NCBI GenBank assembly: GCA_015711825.1
Contig: JACVJD010000016.1
Coordinates: 1 to 42,166 of the forward strand
Direction of reading: 5' to 3'
Length of the DNA stretch: 42,166 nt
Source of the DNA: Candidatus Solincola daggyaiensis
GTDB lineage: Bacteria; Actinomycetota; Geothermincolia; Geothermincolales; RBG-13-55-18
Shown: positions 18,815 to 28,393 of the stretch, piece after piece
How positions within the stretch are numbered: the first letter of the stretch is position 1
How the letters are laid out: every line of letters starts with the position of its first letter
Program-made: the position numbers and the translations under genes
The notes under the pieces: model-generated
Told to the model about the DNA's origin: nothing
Seen by the model: only the letters and a program-made list of their open reading frames with translations
Database searches by the model: none

Positions 18815-20485
18815 CTATGGCGAGGGTTTACCGCCGTTGCGCCCGGTCTCGAAGAATTCCCGCAGGATGTCGCGGCACTCCTCCTCCATGATGCCGTCGG
18901 CGACGTCCAGGCGGTGGTGGGTGGTCTCGTCGTGGACGAGGTTGTAGCGGCTGCCCGCCGCCGACCGCCCCTCCGTCCTCGTCTCCGGCCATCCCCCCAG
19001 GCGCCTGAAGATGTCCTCGCCGAAGCTCGTGGGCAGGGGCTCGCCCGGGATCATCCTGTAGGTGCGCTTCCCGTCCTCGCCCCGCTCGGCGCGCAGAAAG
19101 AGCGCCCCGTCCTGTCCCCGCCGGTGAAAGCTCTCCGCCAAGGCGTAAAGGTGCGTGACGTAGAAGACCCTGATGCCCGACTCCAGCAGCGCCTGCACGA
19201 CCTGGCGCGCGATCTCCGATCCCTCCCTCTCGTTCGTCGCCGCGAAGGACTCGTTTAAGAGCAACATGCTGCGTGGCGTCGCCTCGTCGACTATCTCGCT
19301 CATCCTGCTCAACTCCTCGTCCAGCCTTCCATGCACCATGGCGGCATCCTCCTCCCGAATGAAATGGGTGAAAACGCGGTCGCGCACGCCGGCGCGAAAC
19401 GACTCCGCCCCCACGAACATGCCGCACTGCATCATCAGCTGGGCGAGGCCCACGCTGCGCAGGAAGGTGGATTTCCCGCCCGAGTTGGCCCCGGTTATCA
19501 TCACCAGCGACTTTCCGTCCGCCTCCACATCGTTGCCCACCACCCTTTCCCGCACCCGCAACGTCAGGCAGACGTCGTAAAGGCCGCGGCAGGACAGCGC
19601 GGGAGCGCTCCAGGGTCGGGGAACGGGGAAGCAGGTCGGCTCGCCCTTTTCGGCAAGCCGCTCATGGAGGTTCAGGCAGCTCACGTAGAACCCCAACTCC
19701 AGGCGGAGCATGGTGAAGAAGGCGAGGATGTGATCCTTGGACGCGGCGAGCGCGTCGGCGACGAGGTTGAGTCCGCGGTCGGTCAACTCCCTCAGCGCCC
19801 TCGCGCCGGCTTCATCGCGGGGGTGGATGTCGAAGGAGTACGAGTCGCGGGGCCATATCCCCATCCGTTCCTTCAATCCCTGCTTCTGCTTGCCGCCGGG
19901 CGTGCGGAGCATGTAGTCTTTTCCTTTGCCGCCCCTGCCGAGCCTCGCGCTGATGAGCATGCCGTCGCGGAACTTGAGCCTTTCCAGGTGCCCGTCCACG
20001 CTCTGGAGGTACTCGTCGTCGAGCTCCCTCACCAGCATGGCGAAGAAGCCGGTCATGCCCTCGGAGCGGAAGCCGGCCGCGCGCTCGTCGGCGATGACCC
20101 GCAGCCTTTTCAACAAGCCCATGAACATCTCGAGGGCCTCCACGGAAGAGCGGAGGATCCCGGAGGGATGCTTGGTGAAAAACCCCCAGGACTTGAGCTT
20201 CCTCTCCCTGACCACGCCCTCCACCGCGATGGCGTACATCTCCCTCACCACCTCCGCGTGGGTGATGCAGTCCTCAAGGACCCGCTGGCGGTAGGCGATG
20301 GCCTCGGGATCGTCGAGGCTCGCCAGGAGCACCTTTTTGGAGACCTCGAAAAGAAAGGCGTCGCCCCGCGCCATGGCCTCGAAGAGCGTGGCCAGGTCGA
20401 GGTCCAGGATAACCTCCTCCTGGCGGCGGGACGGCTCCACCTGCGGGTCGAAGTCCCTGTCCCTGTACAGGAGGTGAACTTTCAC
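18815..20485 (-). CDS. MutS-family ATPase, second member of a coupled pair
   Basis: A 556-residue protein with a MutS core (lever/clamp-like helices) and the C-terminal ABC-type ATPase. Walker A is at about 331-340 (TGANSGGKST), followed by VGLAQLMMQCGMFVGAES, HFIREEDAAMVHGRLDEEL and the Walker B segment MLLLNESFAATNEREGS. The usual MutS LLDE is LLNE, so the acidic pair is reduced to one Glu. The mismatch-recognition domain I (Phe-x-Glu) and the C-terminal nuclease Smr domain of MutS2 are absent. The start is a GTG overlapping the previous stop (GTGA). It lies behind a fluoride riboswitch with the next gene. Probably partners its neighbour; the DNA substrate is unknown. Confidence 0.88.
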   Translation of the reverse strand: MKVHLLYRDRDFDPQVEPSRRQEEVILDLDLATLFEAMARGDAFLFEVSKKVLLASLDDPEAIAYRQRVLEDCITHAEVVREMYAIAVEGVVRERKLKSWGFFTKHPSGILRSSVEALEMFMGLLKRLRVIADERAAGFRSEGMTGFFAMLVRELDDEYLQSVDGHLERLKFRDGMLISARLGRGGKGKDYMLRTPGGKQKQGLKERMGIWPRDSYSFDIHPRDEAGARALRELTDRGLNLVADALAASKDHILAFFTMLRLELGFYVSCLNLHERLAEKGEPTCFPVPRPWSAPALSCRGLYDVCLTLRVRERVVGNDVEADGKSLVMITGANSGGKSTFLRSVGLAQLMMQCGMFVGAESFRAGVRDRVFTHFIREEDAAMVHGRLDEELSRMSEIVDEATPRSMLLLNESFAATNEREGSEIARQVVQALLESGIRVFYVTHLYALAESFHRRGQDGALFLRAERGEDGKRTYRMIPGEPLPTSFGEDIFRRLGGWPETRTEGRSAAGSRYNLVHDETTHHRLDVADGIMEEECRDILREFFETGRNGGKPSP

Positions 20486-22053
20486 GGCGCCATCCTCCTC
20501 TTGAGGCGGTCGTACGTGAGGCCGTACTTGGCGGCGATGGCGGCGGCGAACGCGAGGCCGTCGGCGGGCCTCCTCTCTATCCTGAAGGTCCGCCGCGCCG
20601 GGTTCTCCGGCTCCACCACGCTTACCATGCTCACGACGGAGTCGTCCAGCCGCGCTAGCTCCTCGACGAAGGTCACCAGGACGCATACCGCGCCGAGCCG
20701 CATGATCTGCTCCATCATCTTCTTGCCCAGAAAGAGGGCGTCGTGCAGGGTGGTGGAAGAGAAGATCTCGTTGATGACGATGACGCTCTGCGAGGTGGCC
20801 TCCCGGAAGATCTCCCGTATCCTCACCAGGTCGTCTTCGAGCTTCCCCAGCGGGTTATCGAAGTCCTCCTCGCGCTCAAAGTGCGTGAAAAGAGCGTCGA
20901 AGGGAATAAGCCGCGCCTCTTTGCCCGGCACGGGACAGCCGATGCCGCACAGGTAGTGCAGCTGGCCGAACATGCGCGCGAAGGTAGTCTTCCCACTCTG
21001 GTTCGGGCCGGTGACCACGATGACGCGCTCCCGGCCACCGAGGTGGAAATCGTTGCTCACCACCCGCGATCCCTCGGGCACCAGCTTGGCCGCGAGCGCC
21101 AGATCGAAGGCGTCCCGGCAATAGACCTCCCTCGATCCTTCCAAGATCTCGGGGTAACAGAAGTCGAGTCCGGCGGCCTTCAACGGCGCGATGAATTCCA
21201 GGTAACCCAGGTAGAACTGGACCTCGCGGTCGAAATCGCGGATGGTGCCGTCGATAAAATCCCGCCGGCGCCGGCAGTATTCCTCCAGCTTGGTAAAGAC
21301 CTCCCCGAAGAGGAGCGCCACGCGGTCGAGGATGGCCGCCTCCACGTGGTTCATGCCCGGACCGTGGTGGAAATCGAAGCGGTAGTCTTTCACCTCACCC
21401 TGCTTGAACTTCTCGAAGATCCGGAGCACCTCGGCGCTGTAGTCCTCCTCCGACCCGTACCTGCGCACCCGCACGCGGTTGCCCTTTATGTGCACGCAGT
21501 AGCTCACCCCGGCAAGCTCTTCCTTCAGCTCCTTGGTCTCCGCGCAGAGGGAGGTGAAAGCCGGGGAACCGACGTAGGCGGAGAGGTAGCCGCGCAGAGC
21601 CACGAACCCGCGCGACCTCACCTCCATTGCGGCGAGGTCGCAGGCCAGGCGGCGCACGGCCTCGCAGTAGGCGTCCACCACCTCGACGAACCAGCCTTGC
21701 TTGAGGCGCTGGTAATGCAGCTTATCGATCATGGCGAGGTAGCGGCGCACCTCGCGCATGCTCAGCGTGAACGACGAAACGGCCTCGAAGAGCGCGTCGT
21801 CCTCCAGGTCCCGGAATACCTCCTGGCGATAGCGGATGGCGTCGCCGCTGTCCAGTTTCGCGTAGAAGAACGGGGCCAGCTCGTACTCCTCGCGGCCGGT
21901 GAGGACGGAATCGAGGACCTGGTCGAGGTTGAGGTCGCAGAAGAAGGCGGGCTGGTCCTCGCCGCCATCTCCCCGGCGGCTCTCGGGGCCCTCGAAGAGG
22001 ATGCTGTGAAAAGCCCGCACCTCCTCCTCGCGCGCCGCGGCCGATCCTACCAT
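20482..22053 (-). CDS. MutS-family ATPase, first gene of a fluoride-riboswitch unit
   Basis: A 523-residue MutS-like protein. About 330 residues of helical core precede an ATPase with Walker A VVTGPNQSGKTTFAR (about 348-360), then HYLCGIGCPVPGKEARL, HFEREEDFDNPLGKLEDDL and Walker B SVIVINEIFSSTTLHD. Here too Asp of the DE pair is Asn. It is clearly homologous to, but diverged from, the next gene. The ATG at 22053 has a plausible GAGGGGAT site. It sits about 200 bases after the terminator of a fluoride riboswitch and about 340 bases after a consensus-like promoter. MutS genes have been reported among crcB-motif (fluoride riboswitch) targets, as I recall, without a known mechanism. Confidence 0.88.
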   Translation of the reverse strand: MVGSAAAREEEVRAFHSILFEGPESRRGDGGEDQPAFFCDLNLDQVLDSVLTGREEYELAPFFYAKLDSGDAIRYRQEVFRDLEDDALFEAVSSFTLSMREVRRYLAMIDKLHYQRLKQGWFVEVVDAYCEAVRRLACDLAAMEVRSRGFVALRGYLSAYVGSPAFTSLCAETKELKEELAGVSYCVHIKGNRVRVRRYGSEEDYSAEVLRIFEKFKQGEVKDYRFDFHHGPGMNHVEAAILDRVALLFGEVFTKLEEYCRRRRDFIDGTIRDFDREVQFYLGYLEFIAPLKAAGLDFCYPEILEGSREVYCRDAFDLALAAKLVPEGSRVVSNDFHLGGRERVIVVTGPNQSGKTTFARMFGQLHYLCGIGCPVPGKEARLIPFDALFTHFEREEDFDNPLGKLEDDLVRIREIFREATSQSVIVINEIFSSTTLHDALFLGKKMMEQIMRLGAVCVLVTFVEELARLDDSVVSMVSVVEPENPARRTFRIERRPADGLAFAAAIAAKYGLTYDRLKRRMAP

Positions 22054-22258: not shown

Positions 22259-22295
22259 AAAAAAATATAGCTTCCATCACACCGATAGAAGCTAT
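22259..22295 (-). terminator. Terminator of the minus-strand fluoride riboswitch
   Basis: On the minus strand ATAGCTTC-TATC pairs with GATG-GAAGCTAT around the loop GGTGT (one mismatch in the stem), followed by A and seven Ts (22265-22259). The 5' arm contains AGCTTC, the strand that also forms the riboswitch pseudoknot, so ligand binding and termination are mutually exclusive. Confidence 0.85.
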
Positions 22296-22330
22296 CATCC
22301 CCAAAGGGCATCTGGTGAGCCTCATCACCC
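22280..22330 (-). promoter_or_regulatory. Fluoride riboswitch (crcB motif) upstream of the MutS pair
   Basis: Minus strand: P1 GGTG/CACC encloses ATGAGGCT; P2 is CCC-TTT-GGG; then comes the conserved GATGATAGCTTCTA. GAGGCT in the P1 loop pairs with AGCTTC to form the pseudoknot. This is the order and sequence of the fluoride aptamer known from Thermotoga petrophila (GATGAGGCC...TGATGGCCTCTAC). The adjoining terminator marks it as an ON switch: fluoride stabilises the pseudoknot and prevents termination. Confidence 0.9.
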
Positions 22331-22397
22331 GGCTGCTCGCCCCGCCGGCCCCGCGGCCCGCGGCTCATCGCTCATGGCCGCAATGCCGGCAGTTTCA

Positions 22398-22577: not shown

Positions 22578-22630
22578 AGAGGCGATGAGGCTCGCCTGTG
22601 CGCCCGTTTGCGGCTGATAGCTTCTACCAG
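22578..22630 (+). promoter_or_regulatory. Fluoride riboswitch (crcB motif) upstream of 64/242-residue genes
   Basis: Plus strand: P1 AGGCG/CGCCT (22580-22596) encloses ATGAGGCT; P2 GCC/GGC follows; then GCTGATAGCTTCTACC. GAGGCT pairs with AGCTTC as the pseudoknot. The sequence aligns closely with the minus-strand switch 250 bases away and with the published fluoride aptamer. No strong plus-strand promoter is obvious; TATCAT at 22566-22571 is a candidate -10. Confidence 0.92.
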
Positions 22631-22652
22631 CGCGGTAGGAGCTTTTGTTTTT
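22619..22652 (+). terminator. Terminator of the plus-strand fluoride riboswitch
   Basis: AGCTTCTACC (22619-22628), loop AGCGC, GGTAGGAGCT (22634-22643), then TTTTGTTTTT. The 5' arm is the pseudoknot strand of the aptamer. The hairpin ends 20 bases before the GTG of the downstream gene, so termination would block the whole unit without fluoride. Confidence 0.9.
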
Positions 22653-22671: not shown

Positions 22672-22866
22672 GTGGGGTACGAGGAGCTCTGCGAGGGGAA
22701 TGCCGGGGCCGTCGACAGGTTCTTCCTCCAGGAGGAAGGCGGCAGCGATTCCTTCGTCGAGCGCCTGCGGGCCATCAAGGGAAGGCTCGCGTGCGAGCGC
22801 TTTCTTGCAGGCGAGGAGGCGGACGGCCTGATGGAGGAGGTCATGGAGGGAACGCATGCGCCCTAG
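22672..22866 (+). CDS. 64-residue protein of unknown function, fluoride-switch controlled
   Basis: A short acidic soluble protein starting GTG (22672) behind GGAAGGGGAG. It reads MGYEELCEGNAGAVDRFFLQ and then SFVERLRAIKGRLACERFLAG, ending MEGTHAP. It is mostly helical, with two cysteines and no membrane segment or signal. I know no family for it. Its last eleven bases overlap the next gene, implying translational coupling. It could be an adaptor or the N-terminal partner of the larger protein. The riboswitch directly upstream makes it a candidate component of fluoride tolerance. Confidence 0.7.
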   Translation: MGYEELCEGNAGAVDRFFLQEEGGSDSFVERLRAIKGRLACERFLAGEEADGLMEEVMEGTHAP

Positions 22867-23584
22867 GCCGGGGCAAGAGGAGGGCTCGGTGGTCGAGCAG
22901 CTGCTCGCATCCATGGGCGTGCGCCGCCGCCCGGATCCCTTTGCGCACCTGAGCGGACAGGGAGAAAACGCGACCGGGTGGTTGCGGGCCAGGATCGACG
23001 CGTGCGTAGGAAGCGGCGTCTGCCCCCTATGCGACGCGCGCCGCTCCAGTCTGTCGGATTTCCTGTTCTGGCTGCCGGCCAACCTTCGCGATGCCCAATA
23101 TTTCCTTTCTCTTCTGGCAGGCGGCGGCTTTTGCCCCGACCATCTAGATGCGGCCATGGCCCACCTGCGCGATTTTCCCTACAGCCAGGTACGCCTCTTC
23201 GCCCTCATGCGCATGCTCCTGGAGGAGGGACGCTTCGCTACCAGCCGGTCTTGCCATCTCTGCCGAGCGCTGGAGGAGAGCAGGCAGGCCTACGAGCAGG
23301 CGTTAAAGGACCGCTGCGACGCGGTAAAAGACACCGGTTCGCCGAAATCCTGCCTTTGCCCGCGCCACGCCCGGACCTTCGGTCGCGCACTCTCCGCGGG
23401 TGGCGGTATTTACGTGGGGGAAAAGGAGATGTTCCCCGGGCTGGGAGGATCCCGCAGGGCCGCCCTCATGCGATCCCTGGAGGAGATCGCGCAGGGGTTC
23501 CACGCCATGGAGATGAGCGAATTGCGTAGAAGGCTCGGCGCGTGCGAGTCGCTGCTGCGCGAGGCGATGGCCCTGACCGCGTAG
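22856..23584 (+). CDS. 242-residue protein with two CxxC...CxxH modules, fluoride-switch controlled
   Basis: A soluble, largely helical protein. Module 1 has C56-P-L-C59 and C93-P-D-H96; module 2 has C133-H-L-C136 and C168-P-R-H171. Each is a four-ligand site suited to Zn2+ or another metal, separated by a helical spacer of 31-33 residues. The style (CPLC then FCPxH) resembles DUF6062-type proteins, although I cannot confirm membership. There are no membrane helices, so it is not an exporter. The ATG at 22856 overlaps the 64-residue gene. It is the last gene of a unit behind a fluoride riboswitch, so expression should rise with fluoride; how it would help the cell is unknown. Confidence 0.85.
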   Translation: MRPRPGQEEGSVVEQLLASMGVRRRPDPFAHLSGQGENATGWLRARIDACVGSGVCPLCDARRSSLSDFLFWLPANLRDAQYFLSLLAGGGFCPDHLDAAMAHLRDFPYSQVRLFALMRMLLEEGRFATSRSCHLCRALEESRQAYEQALKDRCDAVKDTGSPKSCLCPRHARTFGRALSAGGGIYVGEKEMFPGLGGSRRAALMRSLEEIAQGFHAMEMSELRRRLGACESLLREAMALTA

Positions 23585-23939: not shown

Positions 23940-25130
23940 TCAAGGGATAAACCTGCGAAAGGGAACGTCCACGGGGATCTTTCCCCTGCGCAGGGTGAGG
24001 ATGATGTGCTCGGTTATGGTGTCGCCGGAGATCTCGATCCTCTCCCCTTCCAGAACGACGTATCCCGAGTAACCGGCCTCGAAGCGGTAATAGCAGGGCT
24101 GCGACAGCCTGGATAAACGCTTTCTCAGCCGGGCGGGAACCCCCATGTTCTCGAGCAGATCGATGTGCTCCGGTATGTTTTCAACCCGGAACTCCACCTC
24201 CCCCGCCGTGCCGCCTTCCTCGAAGCGGAACCCGTAACGGTGCGGATAGACCTGGATGCCGAAGTCGTCGATGCCGTAATCCTCGAAATGCCATTCCGCG
24301 CGGAAGGTCTCCGACACCAGGCGGTCCCCCCGCGCCACCAGCAACATGGGTATGTGGGCGCCGCCGCACGAGCGGCCGCAGATGACGTCGGCGAAGAGCA
24401 TGGTTATGCCGCTCTCGCGGTGCATGAGCCTTCCCCAATGCCAGCGCTCGATCATCACCGAGGATGGAAAATTGCCCCAGTTATGGTCGTGGTAACCCTC
24501 TCCCTTCACCTCCACCGTTCCGCCGGGGTAGGACAGCGTGCCCTCCACCGCCGCCCGCGGTTGGGGCACGAGCCATCCGAAGGCCAGGGGGTAGTTGGGG
24601 TACCCGAACATCATCTGCCCGTTGCCCAGGGCCCACCCCGGAAGCAGGTTCCGGAACACGAGATGGGCGGCGAACTCGCCGTGCTCCAGGTCCACGCGGT
24701 ATTCGGGATAGCTTCCGCGTATGCGGTTTCCCGCCAGCTCCACGTCGCATCGGTGGGGCGAGGCCTTGAACTCAGAGCGCGGGATGTTAACGTGGTTGTT
24801 GTAACAGGTGCCGTCAGGCAGGTACACGTGCAGCCACATCAACGACTTGGTCCGGCTGAACTTCCAGGTGTCCGGATCCATGAGCCCGCATACCACGGCG
24901 TGGCCGTCCTCGAACTTCGCGTCGAAGTACCACCACTCGAAGCCGAAACGCCCGCCGGGACGGTGCCAGCCGTCGAAGTGCTCGGGAATGCCCCGGTTCA
25001 GGTCATGGGGATGGCGCCCCGCCGGCAATCCCTGGAAAAAGACCGGCAGCTTGCGACGCCCCGGCAACGCCGCGGCGAGCATGCGCGGCAGCGAGACCCC
25101 GGCCACCGCGTCCTCTTTCATCCCGTTCAT
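23940..25130 (-). CDS. CrtC/AttH-like (carotenoid 1,2-hydratase family) lipocalin-fold protein
   Basis: A 396-residue protein of the CrtC/AttH superfamily: two lipocalin-like barrels. The hallmark FEWWYFDAKFEDGHAVV lies near residue 63, with YHDHNWGNFPSSVMIERWHWG at mid-chain, as in hydroxyneurosporene synthase. CrtC adds water to the terminal double bond of acyclic carotenoids; AttH relatives act on other lipids. No signal peptide is clear. I start at ATG 25130, behind GGTGAGGAGAG. It is the final gene of the large redox cluster, 11 bases after an FAD protein, close to two CrtI-like flavoproteins. Without a phytoene synthase gene in view, a carotenoid role is not certain. Confidence 0.82.
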   Translation of the reverse strand: MNGMKEDAVAGVSLPRMLAAALPGRRKLPVFFQGLPAGRHPHDLNRGIPEHFDGWHRPGGRFGFEWWYFDAKFEDGHAVVCGLMDPDTWKFSRTKSLMWLHVYLPDGTCYNNHVNIPRSEFKASPHRCDVELAGNRIRGSYPEYRVDLEHGEFAAHLVFRNLLPGWALGNGQMMFGYPNYPLAFGWLVPQPRAAVEGTLSYPGGTVEVKGEGYHDHNWGNFPSSVMIERWHWGRLMHRESGITMLFADVICGRSCGGAHIPMLLVARGDRLVSETFRAEWHFEDYGIDDFGIQVYPHRYGFRFEEGGTAGEVEFRVENIPEHIDLLENMGVPARLRKRLSRLSQPCYYRFEAGYSGYVVLEGERIEISGDTITEHIILTLRRGKIPVDVPFRRFIP

Positions 25131-25141
25131 CTTTTCTCTCC

Positions 25142-26218
25142 TCACCCTCGCAGCCCGCCCGCCTGAATCCATCTCAGGCCGGGTATCTGGTACGACATTA
25201 TCTTGCCGTACAAGTCGGGTCTGGAGCAGGAGATGCCCAGGAAGGCGCGCAGCACCCGTCGCCGCATGGCCATAGGGGTGGCGTCCATGAGGCGCCTGAG
25301 CGCCCAGGCCGCGCGGTAAAAGGAGAGCACCTCCCGGTAAAGCTCGAAAGCCTTCGCCTTATCGTCCACCGCCAGCGCCGCGATCCTTCCGCTCACCAGC
25401 GAGGCGTGCACGCCGAAAAGAAAGAGGGGGTCGTTCATGGATGCCAGGGTGCCGGCGATAATCTTGTCGCCCACGAAGAGCCTGGGATTGTCGAGGGCGC
25501 TCACCGCCACCGCGCCGCGGAAAAGGTGCCATTCATGAAAGGCGATCCCCTCGTCCTCGTGCAGCATCTCCGCCCACCTGTCCACCAGCTCTCGCTTCAC
25601 CGGCCCGCTGCGGTCGAAGAAGAGGGCGTAGGCGATGCCGTTGGCGTTGGCCAGGTAGCAGTAGTCGCGGGTCATGTCGCTGAAATAGGCGATGGCCTTG
25701 GGCTCGCCCTCATACCTGGCGGTGGAGGTGTAACCGTAAACCTGCCGGAAGGGTATGTCCAACGCCAGGAAGGACTCGAAATGCAGGCCGGTGGCGATGA
25801 TGCTGTCGGGGGGAAGCTGCGCGAGGTCGGCCTGGGAGCGCAGGCGCCATGCGAACTCGAATTCCACCCCCGCCTCAACCGCCTTGCCGTAGAGGTAGTT
25901 CTCGATGGAGGTCGAGCGCGCTCCCCTCTCCACGGCGTGAAGGTGCAGTAGGCCGCCGTCTATATCGTACTTCTCGCTGTAGGCGTACGAGCGCATGGCG
26001 CGCGTCGGGGTCACCTGGGGGGGTTTCAACTCCACCCCCGTGCACGCGCCCAGGAGGTCGGGAAGCATGGGCGTGGAGTCCACCGAGGGGTGGTTCTCGG
26101 GCTCTCCCCCTACCCTGTCGTATTTTTCCAATACGGTCACCTTATGGCCCGCGCGGGCGCAGTTTATCGCCGCCACCAGCCCCGCGAGGCCCGCGCCCAC
26201 CACGGCTATCTCCGCCAT
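25142..26218 (-). CDS. FAD-dependent oxidoreductase, geranylgeranyl-reductase-like
   Basis: A 358-residue flavoprotein with a Rossmann start MAEIAVVGAGLAGLVAAINC (GxGxxG) and the end of the first FAD strand VTVLEKYDRVGG. The middle includes IIATGLHFESFLALD, and a late segment NPRLFVGDKIIAGTLASMND has the usual position of the GD motif that touches the FAD ribityl chain. The C-terminal helices (YRAAWALRRLMDA) resemble those of geranylgeranyl reductase-like or lipid-modifying enzymes. The substrate is unknown. Start alternatives GTG 26227, ATG 26224 and ATG 26218 lie within nine bases. It is cotranscribed with the CrtC-like gene. Confidence 0.82.
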   Translation of the reverse strand: MAEIAVVGAGLAGLVAAINCARAGHKVTVLEKYDRVGGEPENHPSVDSTPMLPDLLGACTGVELKPPQVTPTRAMRSYAYSEKYDIDGGLLHLHAVERGARSTSIENYLYGKAVEAGVEFEFAWRLRSQADLAQLPPDSIIATGLHFESFLALDIPFRQVYGYTSTARYEGEPKAIAYFSDMTRDYCYLANANGIAYALFFDRSGPVKRELVDRWAEMLHEDEGIAFHEWHLFRGAVAVSALDNPRLFVGDKIIAGTLASMNDPLFLFGVHASLVSGRIAALAVDDKAKAFELYREVLSFYRAAWALRRLMDATPMAMRRRVLRAFLGISCSRPDLYGKIMSYQIPGLRWIQAGGLRG

Positions 26219-26600
26219 CTCCATCACCCCTTTCCGTCAAACGGGTCATCGGTCACCGAACCCGGGCCATGCCGCCGCAATGCCGCCCAGGGAGATAATG
26301 CACGCCCGCGCCCTCGGGTCCCACGCCTTGCTTTCCGGGCTCTTCGCCGCAAAAGGCGGATTATTCCGGCCCTATCGAGCCCTCGACGATGTCGGCCATG
26401 CCTTAACCGCCTGCATTTACCGATCGCCGTCGCCTCTCCGCCATCTTTTCACTCCCTCTTCCGGGAAAGACCTTTCGTCATAACCTCGCCAGGGGATCGC
26501 CGTACCCTGCGGTCGCCCGCGAGTTTGACGCCCTCGCAAAACGCTTCCTGCCCCGGCGACCACGGGCTCGGCCTCCGCGCCGAAGACGCCGTAGTCGCCG
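26219..26600. other. Intra-cluster gap without recognisable gene
   Basis: About 380 GC-rich bases between two minus-strand flavoprotein genes. A small hairpin (CGCC-GCAAAA-GGCG, near 26350) is the only structure I noted. No TTGACA/TATAAT-like promoter is obvious. Possibly a decayed spacer or the site of an undetected promoter. Confidence 0.35.
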
Positions 26601-28100
26601 TCAGGAAAGGATCCCTGCGAGGTAGAGGGCGCTCGCCGCCGCCTGCTCCGTTCCCACCCCCCGCGCGCCCGCGTCGGTGCCCACCAGCCACAGGCCCTCC
26701 ACGGGCGTGCGGCAGGAGGGCTTGGCGAGCCCGGTCTGCCCCACGCACTGCGCGAGGCCGATACACTCCCCGCTGGGCTTGCCGGTGATGGCCGCGGTGT
26801 GGGAGATGTGGGTGCGCATGCTCCACTCCACGTTACCCTTCACGGCGGGGAACAGCTCCAGGAGCCTTTCCTCCGCGCGGTCCAGGATGCGCTCGCATTG
26901 CTCGACGTTCTGCGGCGTGACCTCGCTGGGACCCGGCACGCCCATGATCAGGAGCTGCCTGCCCAAGGGCGCCACGTAGGGATCCCACTCCGAGGGCATG
27001 GGCACGAAAAGCAGGGGGTCCTCCGGCACTCCCCCCTGCTCTATGTATTCGAACATGTGGTCGGGATGCACGTGGGGCTTGTTGAAAAAGCTCGGCGCCC
27101 CCACGTCGACCACCCGCCGCGACAGCCCGTACTTGGCGGTGATGAAGGAATAGGAGTAGCGCAGCCCCCTGACGTAGGCAGCGTACTCGGAGGGGAAGTT
27201 CTCCTCCCCCGCCAGCTCCAGGGTGCGCTTGATGCCCGCGTTGGAGACCACCACCTCGGCGGGGAAGAACTCCCCCTCCTTGCTCTCCACTCCCCTCACC
27301 CTTTCCCCCTCCACGCGGATGCGGGCGGCCTCGCAGCCCAGGCGCAGCCTCCCTCCCGCGCGCAGAAAAGCGCGCAGGAAGGAACCGGGTATCTCGCGCG
27401 CCGAGCCGCGGGGCACCCCCAGGCTGCGGTTGCGGTAGATGGAGGCGTAGCACCACAGGAACTCCCCCGCCGCGGCCATGGAATAGGGCACCACCAAAAG
27501 CACCATGCACAGGGTGGCGAGGGTGCCCAAAAACCCCAGGTCGTCGGTGACGCGGTGGGCGAACTCCTGCAGGGTGATGCCGTCGAGCTCGGTCAGCAAG
27601 GCCTCGTCGCGCCTCGCTATGCGCACCACGGCGTCGAGCACCTCGCGGGGGCGCATGCGCTTGGCGGCGCGGTAGGTCTCCTTTTCCAGCAGCCGCATGC
27701 GCTTGGCGGCGTCGCGCTCGCCCTCCCCGGCTATGCGCCGGTCCAGCGCCACCGCCTTGAGGTTCTCCACCAGACCGCGGGGATCGAACTGGTTCTGGTA
27801 GGCCAGCATGTGCACGCGACCGCTGCTGATGATGTCGGACATAGGGTTGGAGACGCACCATTCCAGGTCGCCTCCGACCCGGCGGTTGAGGTCGCCGTGG
27901 GGGCCGCGCGGTCCCATGGAATACATGTGCACGCCGGAATCCACCACGTACCCGTCCTTGACGAAAGAGGAACACTTACCGCCGTAAAAGGGGTTTTTCT
28001 CCAGCAGGGTCACCTGGTGGCCCCTGGACTGCAGCAGGGCCGCGATGCCCGCCCCTCCGATCCCGGATCCGATCACCACCACTTGCTTGTTCCCGGTCAT
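26601..28100 (-). CDS. CrtI-family (phytoene desaturase-like) flavoprotein
   Basis: A 499-residue FAD oxidoreductase. It has the dinucleotide motif VVVIGSGIGGAGIAALLQS, the CrtI-type VTLLEKNPFYGGKCSSF and YVVDSGVHMYSMG, and the C-terminal FAD-binding block GLWLVGTDAGARGVGTEQAA. Members desaturate, isomerise or saturate polyprenoid chains. ATG 28100 follows GGGGAGGAAGAAG. It differs from the other CrtI-like protein here by the longer arginine-rich segment at 130-180. The neighbouring FixC/FixX pairs could provide or drain electrons. The substrate may be a carotenoid, squalene-like lipid or quinone side chain. Confidence 0.85.
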   Translation of the reverse strand: MTGNKQVVVIGSGIGGAGIAALLQSRGHQVTLLEKNPFYGGKCSSFVKDGYVVDSGVHMYSMGPRGPHGDLNRRVGGDLEWCVSNPMSDIISSGRVHMLAYQNQFDPRGLVENLKAVALDRRIAGEGERDAAKRMRLLEKETYRAAKRMRPREVLDAVVRIARRDEALLTELDGITLQEFAHRVTDDLGFLGTLATLCMVLLVVPYSMAAAGEFLWCYASIYRNRSLGVPRGSAREIPGSFLRAFLRAGGRLRLGCEAARIRVEGERVRGVESKEGEFFPAEVVVSNAGIKRTLELAGEENFPSEYAAYVRGLRYSYSFITAKYGLSRRVVDVGAPSFFNKPHVHPDHMFEYIEQGGVPEDPLLFVPMPSEWDPYVAPLGRQLLIMGVPGPSEVTPQNVEQCERILDRAEERLLELFPAVKGNVEWSMRTHISHTAAITGKPSGECIGLAQCVGQTGLAKPSCRTPVEGLWLVGTDAGARGVGTEQAAASALYLAGILS

Positions 28101-28393
28101 CTTCTTCCTCCCCGCCGACCTTTTCCGCCTCGCCTCACGCTCCCGGCAGAGCCCACACCACTCCGCGCCGCCTCCGTTACGCAAGCCCGCAACCGCCGTT
28201 TTGGCGGCTTTTCCCCTTCCCTGTGACGTCCGCCGGCGTATCGCCTTTCCTATCCCCCCTCCATGCCCGACCGCGGGAAGGCGTCCCCGCTCACGAGGCG
28301 GCGACTTCCTTCCCCCCGCCGTCCACGGGCGCCCCGCTTTCCGCGCTCACCGTCCCGGCCGCCAAGAGCCCGCTCTTTCTCCCGCTCGCTCGC
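28101..28393. other. Spacer between two CrtI-like genes
   Basis: A GC-rich 293-base gap on the minus-strand cluster. I see no gene, promoter with recognisable hexamers, or terminator. Confidence 0.3.

Follow-up and report, generated by a model that had tools for sequence, protein, structure and literature searches.

A fluoride-riboswitch operon of Candidatus Solincola daggyaiensis with a dynamin-derived first gene and a DUF6062-like C2CH protein

The window (the whole 42,166-nucleotide stretch of Candidatus Solincola daggyaiensis DNA that was analysed) carries two overlapping plus-strand genes behind a fluoride riboswitch (Table 1). The locus is very probably a fluoride-controlled operon that originated by deletion within a dynamin-like GTPase gene. 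This reading was adopted because of the switch with its terminator, the matches of both ends of the first product (P0001) to dynamins, the 11-bp overlap of the two genes, the intact operon in two relatives, and the linkage of dynamin and DUF6062 genes to fluoride switches.

Table 1. Features of the fluoride-switch locus and related loci
Feature	Positions	Strand	Evidence
P0004, MutS domain V ATPase, second gene	18815-20485	-	PF00488 E 6.9e-22
P0003, MutS domain V ATPase, first gene behind minus-strand switch	20482-22053	-	PF00488 E 1.6e-17; relatives of about 56-60% identity in fluoride islands
Terminator overlapping 3' end of minus-strand aptamer	22267-22295	-	terminator scan
Divergent fluoride riboswitch aptamer, upstream of MutS-like pair	22279-22338	-	cmscan 25.1 bits, E 1.3e-4
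Fluoride riboswitch aptamer RF01734	22572-22633	+	cmscan 29.6 bits, E 4.4e-6, end-to-end model match
Intrinsic terminator, 10-pair stem 22619-22643 plus T-tract	22619-22652	+	terminator scan, sequence
ORF1/P0001, 64 aa, dynamin-like GTPase remnant after in-frame internal deletion	22672-22866	+	end alignments, ORF null set, breakpoint fit, overlap
Remnant part equivalent to dynamin residues 1-46 (N-terminal helices ahead of GTPase domain)	22672-22803	+	alignment with shuffles
Remnant part equivalent to last 20 residues and stop codon of Ca. G. primus dynamin	22804-22866	+	alignment with shuffles
ORF2/P0002, 242 aa, CxxC/CxxH protein, probable divergent DUF6062 relative	22856-23584	+	relatives, DUF6062 match of homologue, hhalign
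First C2CH site: C56, C59, C93, H96 (CPLC 56-59, CPDH 93-96)	23021-23143	+	invariant alignment columns
Second C2CH site: C133, C136, C168, H171 (CHLC 133-136, CPRH 168-171)	23252-23368	+	invariant alignment columns
Dynamin gene fragments, two same-genus genomes	L043 5955-6323; L044 7576-8042	-; +	one overlaps crcB, one adjoins truA

The plus-strand switch and its terminator

In an 851-base cmscan search, the plus-strand aptamer covered positions 1-64 of the 64 in RF01734. The Rfam gathering score for this family is 34 bits; both aptamers of the window fall below it and are hence missed at that threshold. The core pattern GGYGATGRRGCTCRCC (16 bases) had exactly two matches in the window, against 0.04 expected by chance. 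The terminator overlaps the 3' end of the aptamer, which is the usual layout of fluoride on-switches, and its T-tract runs to about 22652, leaving 20 bases to the GTG at 22672, the distance given in the original prediction. Fluoride-switch control of the locus, which had also been predicted, is supported by the presence of the aptamer and the overlapping terminator.

Most known targets of fluoride switches encode exporters, antiporters or enzymes that fluoride inhibits. The full-model match and overlapping terminator are common to the window switch and known on-switches of the fluoride (crcB) class, but the window copy scores below the gathering score and its targets fall outside the usual set of exporter, antiporter and enzyme genes. 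The sub-threshold score would also fit an aptamer that has decayed or lost its function, leaving the genes without fluoride control. This is very improbable, as all switches in this family of bacteria scored 22-36 bits and yet lie precisely upstream of dynamins, and both the core and the terminator are intact here. By analogy with characterised riboswitches, the operon would be induced by fluoride: the ligand would stabilise the aptamer, the overlapping terminator would fail to form, and transcription would proceed.

Intact operons and dynamin loss in relatives

Homologues of P0002 were found in two genomes of the same order, 'Candidatus Geothermincola primus' and 'Candidatus Geothermincola secundus'. 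In both, a fluoride switch (36.5 and 31.7 bits, respectively) is followed by a dynamin-like GTPase (593 or 597 aa) and then by the CxxC gene. The dynamin stop and the CxxC start of Ca. G. primus overlap by 11 bp, laid out as in the window. The intact dynamin relatives matched PF00350 (E 2.7e-29) and PF21808 (34.4 bits), with both the Dynamin_N domain and the helical trunk present. They matched PDB entry 2j68 by sequence (E 1e-34), and a Foldseek search returned BDLP (E 1.6e-16) as well as IniA. They resemble these bacterial dynamin-like proteins in both sequence and fold.

Other members of the host's genus have kept less. A C-terminal dynamin fragment alone remains in one genome (G001), where it overlaps crcB. 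In another (G002), a broken dynamin fragment lies beside truA, a gene that also neighbours the intact dynamin of the host. Judging from these gene remains, loss of the switch-linked dynamin gene is recurrent.

P0001 is a remnant of a dynamin gene

No match to P0001 was found in Pfam or NCBIfam. As a profile of the whole dynamin gave just a weak N-terminal stretch in P0001, pairwise and end-anchored tests were used. The N-terminal end scored 53 against the N-terminus of the host's other dynamin (shuffles 22 +/- 4.3), and the C-terminal end scored 47 against the C-terminus of the Ca. G. primus dynamin (shuffles 17 +/- 3.7). Within a null set of 3183 ORFs from the loci under study, the N-end score was reached by ten ORFs, all of them dynamins, and the C-end score only by the Ca. 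G. primus dynamin and P0001 itself. The best join fell after residue 44, just ahead of the first GTPase strand in a predicted dynamin model of low confidence (pLDDT 62). Relative to an intact dynamin, approximately 527 codons are absent, the deletion is in frame, and the GTPase domain with its G1-G4 motifs is missing.

Two other identities were rejected: a separate family, as both ends are dynamin ends, and a plain C-terminal dynamin fragment, as its first 44 residues resemble dynamin N-termini by score and the join fits best at residue 44. On these alignments, P0001 joins the two termini of a dynamin-like GTPase whose middle has been deleted; it is a remnant, neither an independent gene family nor a functional dynamin. 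Compared with BDLP and IniA, it retains both gene ends but entirely lacks the GTPase and the trunk.

The original prediction had described a gene pair of previously unnamed proteins, in which the 64-residue ORF was a second new fluoride-response protein. This did not hold: both ends match the dynamin found in the same operon slot of relatives, and the first member of the pair is a deletion remnant. The predicted coupling of the two ORFs was borne out by their 11-bp overlap. The predicted reading as a whole, with P0001 and the CxxC protein as a new pair of fluoride-response proteins that evolved together and the latter binding a metal that complexes fluoride, could draw on the fluoride linkage of the CxxC family and on the state of the P0001 ORF, which is open, is normal in codon-position GC (0.73/0.42/0.86), has a ribosome site and is coupled to the next gene. 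It is nevertheless highly unlikely. The dynamin matches at the equivalent operon position largely refute it for P0001, and metal-fluoride binding by the CxxC protein is conjecture.

P0001 could instead be a still functional mini-protein, in which the dynamin end helices were preserved for binding to the CxxC protein or to the dynamin that remains. These helices pack near each other in the dynamin neck, the deletion is in frame, its edge lying just ahead of the first modelled GTPase strand, and the codon-position composition is normal. Such a role is unlikely, however, since P0001 is a single example with no second copy found, the frame had to be retained anyway to keep translational coupling, and the two same-genus genomes G001 and G002 show ordinary decay of dynamin genes. 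An assembly artefact, with contigs or copies wrongly joined and an intact dynamin hidden, was also considered, given an assembly of 190 contigs with another dynamin copy. P0001 differs from that copy at both ends: 13 of 45 columns agree at the N-end, and the C-ends show no resemblance. The join keeps both the reading frame and the overlap, and the host genome yielded no additional dynamin pieces. An artefact is accordingly most improbable.

For the preferred deletion origin, the ancestral operon would have consisted of the switch, a dynamin-like GTPase and a DUF6062-like protein, as in Ca. G. primus and Ca. G. secundus. An in-frame deletion would then have removed the GTPase and trunk but spared the ribosome site, 44 codons at the start, some 20 at the end and the 11-bp overlap, so that the DUF6062-like gene would still be coupled to the switch. 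Transcription would run into the dynamin remnant, and the DUF6062-like protein would be produced by translational coupling. The host retains another, full-length dynamin under a switch of its own. On this account, the locus documents a translationally coupled operon losing its first gene by in-frame deletion with riboswitch control of the second kept.

P0002, a probable divergent relative of DUF6062 proteins

The original prediction placed two matched C2CH sites in the larger ORF, and all eight positions are present in P0002. None of the eight Cys/His columns varies in either alignment examined, one of the Geothermincola family and one of eleven DUF6062 proteins, and the CxxC and CxxH starts are 35-39 residues apart in both the P0002 family and the DUF6062 proteins. 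P0002 itself had no Pfam match at E <= 1 and did not reach the cut-off of DUF6062 (PF19538). The suggested HMM search for DUF6062 proved productive with relatives: the full-length Ca. G. primus homologue (L012) matched PF19538 with 20.1 bits and E 4.5e-4 (cut-off 27), and hhalign of the Geothermincola family against the eleven DUF6062 proteins gave E 7.2e-8 and Prob 94.6 over 60 columns, covering one module only: P0002 module 1 was paired with DUF6062 module 2. The two C2CH sites, their 35-39 spacing and the helical modules are thus common to P0002 and DUF6062, and in other families, too, DUF6062 genes are found behind fluoride switches. P0002 differs in having an N-terminal extension and a shortened linker, a single module that aligns by profile, and no significant Pfam match.

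No hydrophobic segment and no membrane exporter domain were found in P0002, in agreement with the expectation of a soluble, non-channel protein. Its AlphaFold model, built on an alignment that took in two rows from loci of other genomes, was all-helical with moderate confidence (pLDDT 70, pTM 0.65). A fold search with this model gave no PDB match, and a PDB sequence search with DUF6062 gave chance matches only. From its sequence, P0002 would be helical and cytosolic, its two C2CH sites stabilised by zinc; the assignment of zinc rests on the motif, since the model is of moderate confidence (pLDDT 70) and lacks a PDB match. A direct metal-fluoride-binding role, as suggested in the original prediction, is a speculative possibility.

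Linkage to fluoride switches across Actinomycetota

To place the two families in context, 396 Actinomycetota genomes were surveyed. The dynamin subfamily was present in 30 genomes, and in 28 of the 30 a same-strand fluoride switch lies 31-145 bp upstream, across ten families; because three switch-linked dynamins served to build the search model, this proportion describes that subfamily and not all bacterial dynamins. The Pfam DUF6062 model, which is independent of switches, gave 15 matches in 13 genomes. Nine of these 15 genes lie at most 2.1 kb downstream of a same-strand switch, in six families, compared with fewer than 0.02 expected by random placement. Related genomes within the linkage counts are not independent. 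The two dynamins L139 and L140 and the DUF6062 genes L106, L109, L112, L115, L116 and L117 had no fluoride switch nearby, even at a relaxed threshold, and weak switch candidates were seen in G003 and G014.

Individual loci showed several arrangements. In G117 and G084, DUF6062 is located directly 3' of a fluoride switch, and a frameshifted DUF6062 gene is also found behind a switch in G070. The order switch, dynamin, DUF6062 occurs in G217, a member of a distant family. DUF6062 or dynamin adjoins CrcB, DUF190, an Na+/H+ exchanger or MFS transporters in the surveyed loci, and DUF6062 elsewhere accompanies CrcB, a zinc-ribbon/HEAT protein, an Na+/H+ exchanger or MFS transporters. The original prediction would have been contradicted by homologues never occurring beside fluoride switches; DUF6062 was found downstream of switches in six other actinobacterial families, and this comparative genomic evidence favours the idea of a soluble fluoride-response protein.

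Clusters of four to six switches within about 9-18 kb were observed on G070:C89 (L092), G121:C39 (L093/L094) and G117:C26 (L095). These fluoride islands hold varying sets of hydrogenlyase-type complexes, MFS transporters, CrcB with DUF190, MutS-like pairs, enolase, dynamin and DUF6062. A zinc-ribbon and HEAT-repeat protein recurs beside CrcB, MFS or DUF6062 (L120, 969-1523, plus strand; L095, 4352-4849, minus strand) and is a candidate for a further fluoride-response family. A gene for a 277-aa protein without a Pfam match (L094, 1763-2596, plus strand) separates a canonical DUF6062 gene from a fluoride switch.

Export and fluoride defence in the host

The host assembly is 95% complete. Three fluoride switches were found in it, before the intact dynamin (contig 1), the MutS-like pair and the remnant-CxxC operon, and neither CrcB (PF02537) nor CLC (PF00654) had a match in this 95%-complete assembly. 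Some links to CrcB/Fluc operons with DUF190 exist, in that a switch-linked dynamin precedes crcB in G006, G008 and G004 and the dynamin fragment of G001 overlaps crcB, whereas the window operon has no exporter and none was detected in the host genome. Because the host combines three fluoride switches with the lack of a recognisable exporter, it offers a way to test for export-independent defence.

Since both families adjoin fluoride switches in many other Actinomycetota, they point to fluoride defence beyond ion export, and we infer that the DUF6062-like protein and the dynamin-like GTPase serve such a defence. It is possible that export-independent defence in Actinomycetota consists of a dedicated dynamin-like GTPase subfamily together with soluble DUF6062 C2CH proteins, and that some species, including the host, rely on it without a Fluc or CLC-F exporter. 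As to mechanism, the likeliest of those considered, maintenance of the membrane and of the pH and ion balance, is still a tentative one. The dynamin may protect or repair membranes under fluoride/HF stress, and the DUF6062-like protein may be a soluble zinc-site adaptor or partner of the dynamin or of ion transporters. The membrane role is proposed because bacterial DynA is linked to membrane surveillance (PMC8844932).

A literature search found no link of dynamin or DUF6062 to the fluoride riboswitch; a corresponding search for mutS also missed its link, which is filed under the older name crcB and shows how limited such searches are. Passages of a 2024 review name other fluoride-riboswitch targets. 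The dynamin subfamily and DUF6062 appear not to have been named before as fluoride-switch target families, and priority is not certain. The switch-preceded dynamin subfamily and the soluble C2CH family enriched beside switches are each a concrete candidate for a defence against fluoride that goes beyond export, and the linkage gives a first functional handle on DUF6062.

The minus-strand switch, the MutS-like pair and flanking genes

The minus-strand switch precedes two overlapping MutS-like genes (P0003 and P0004; 18815-22053). The start of P0004 was set at a GTG (VKVHLLYR) from comparison with relatives. No relative of the pair was found within the order, yet it is approximately 56-61% identical to pairs in the fluoride islands of other actinobacterial families, which suggests that it was acquired by horizontal transfer. 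A 2010 study had already described mutS genes behind crcB RNAs (Weinberg 2010, PMC2864571), and the minus-strand pair fits this association; it differs in having no canonical MutS domain other than domain V, and it stands outside the plus-strand operon. On the other side of that operon, the minus-strand region 23940-28184 encodes two FAD-dependent oxidoreductases together with a CrtC-like lipocalin-domain protein; their roles may relate to carotenoids or lipids.
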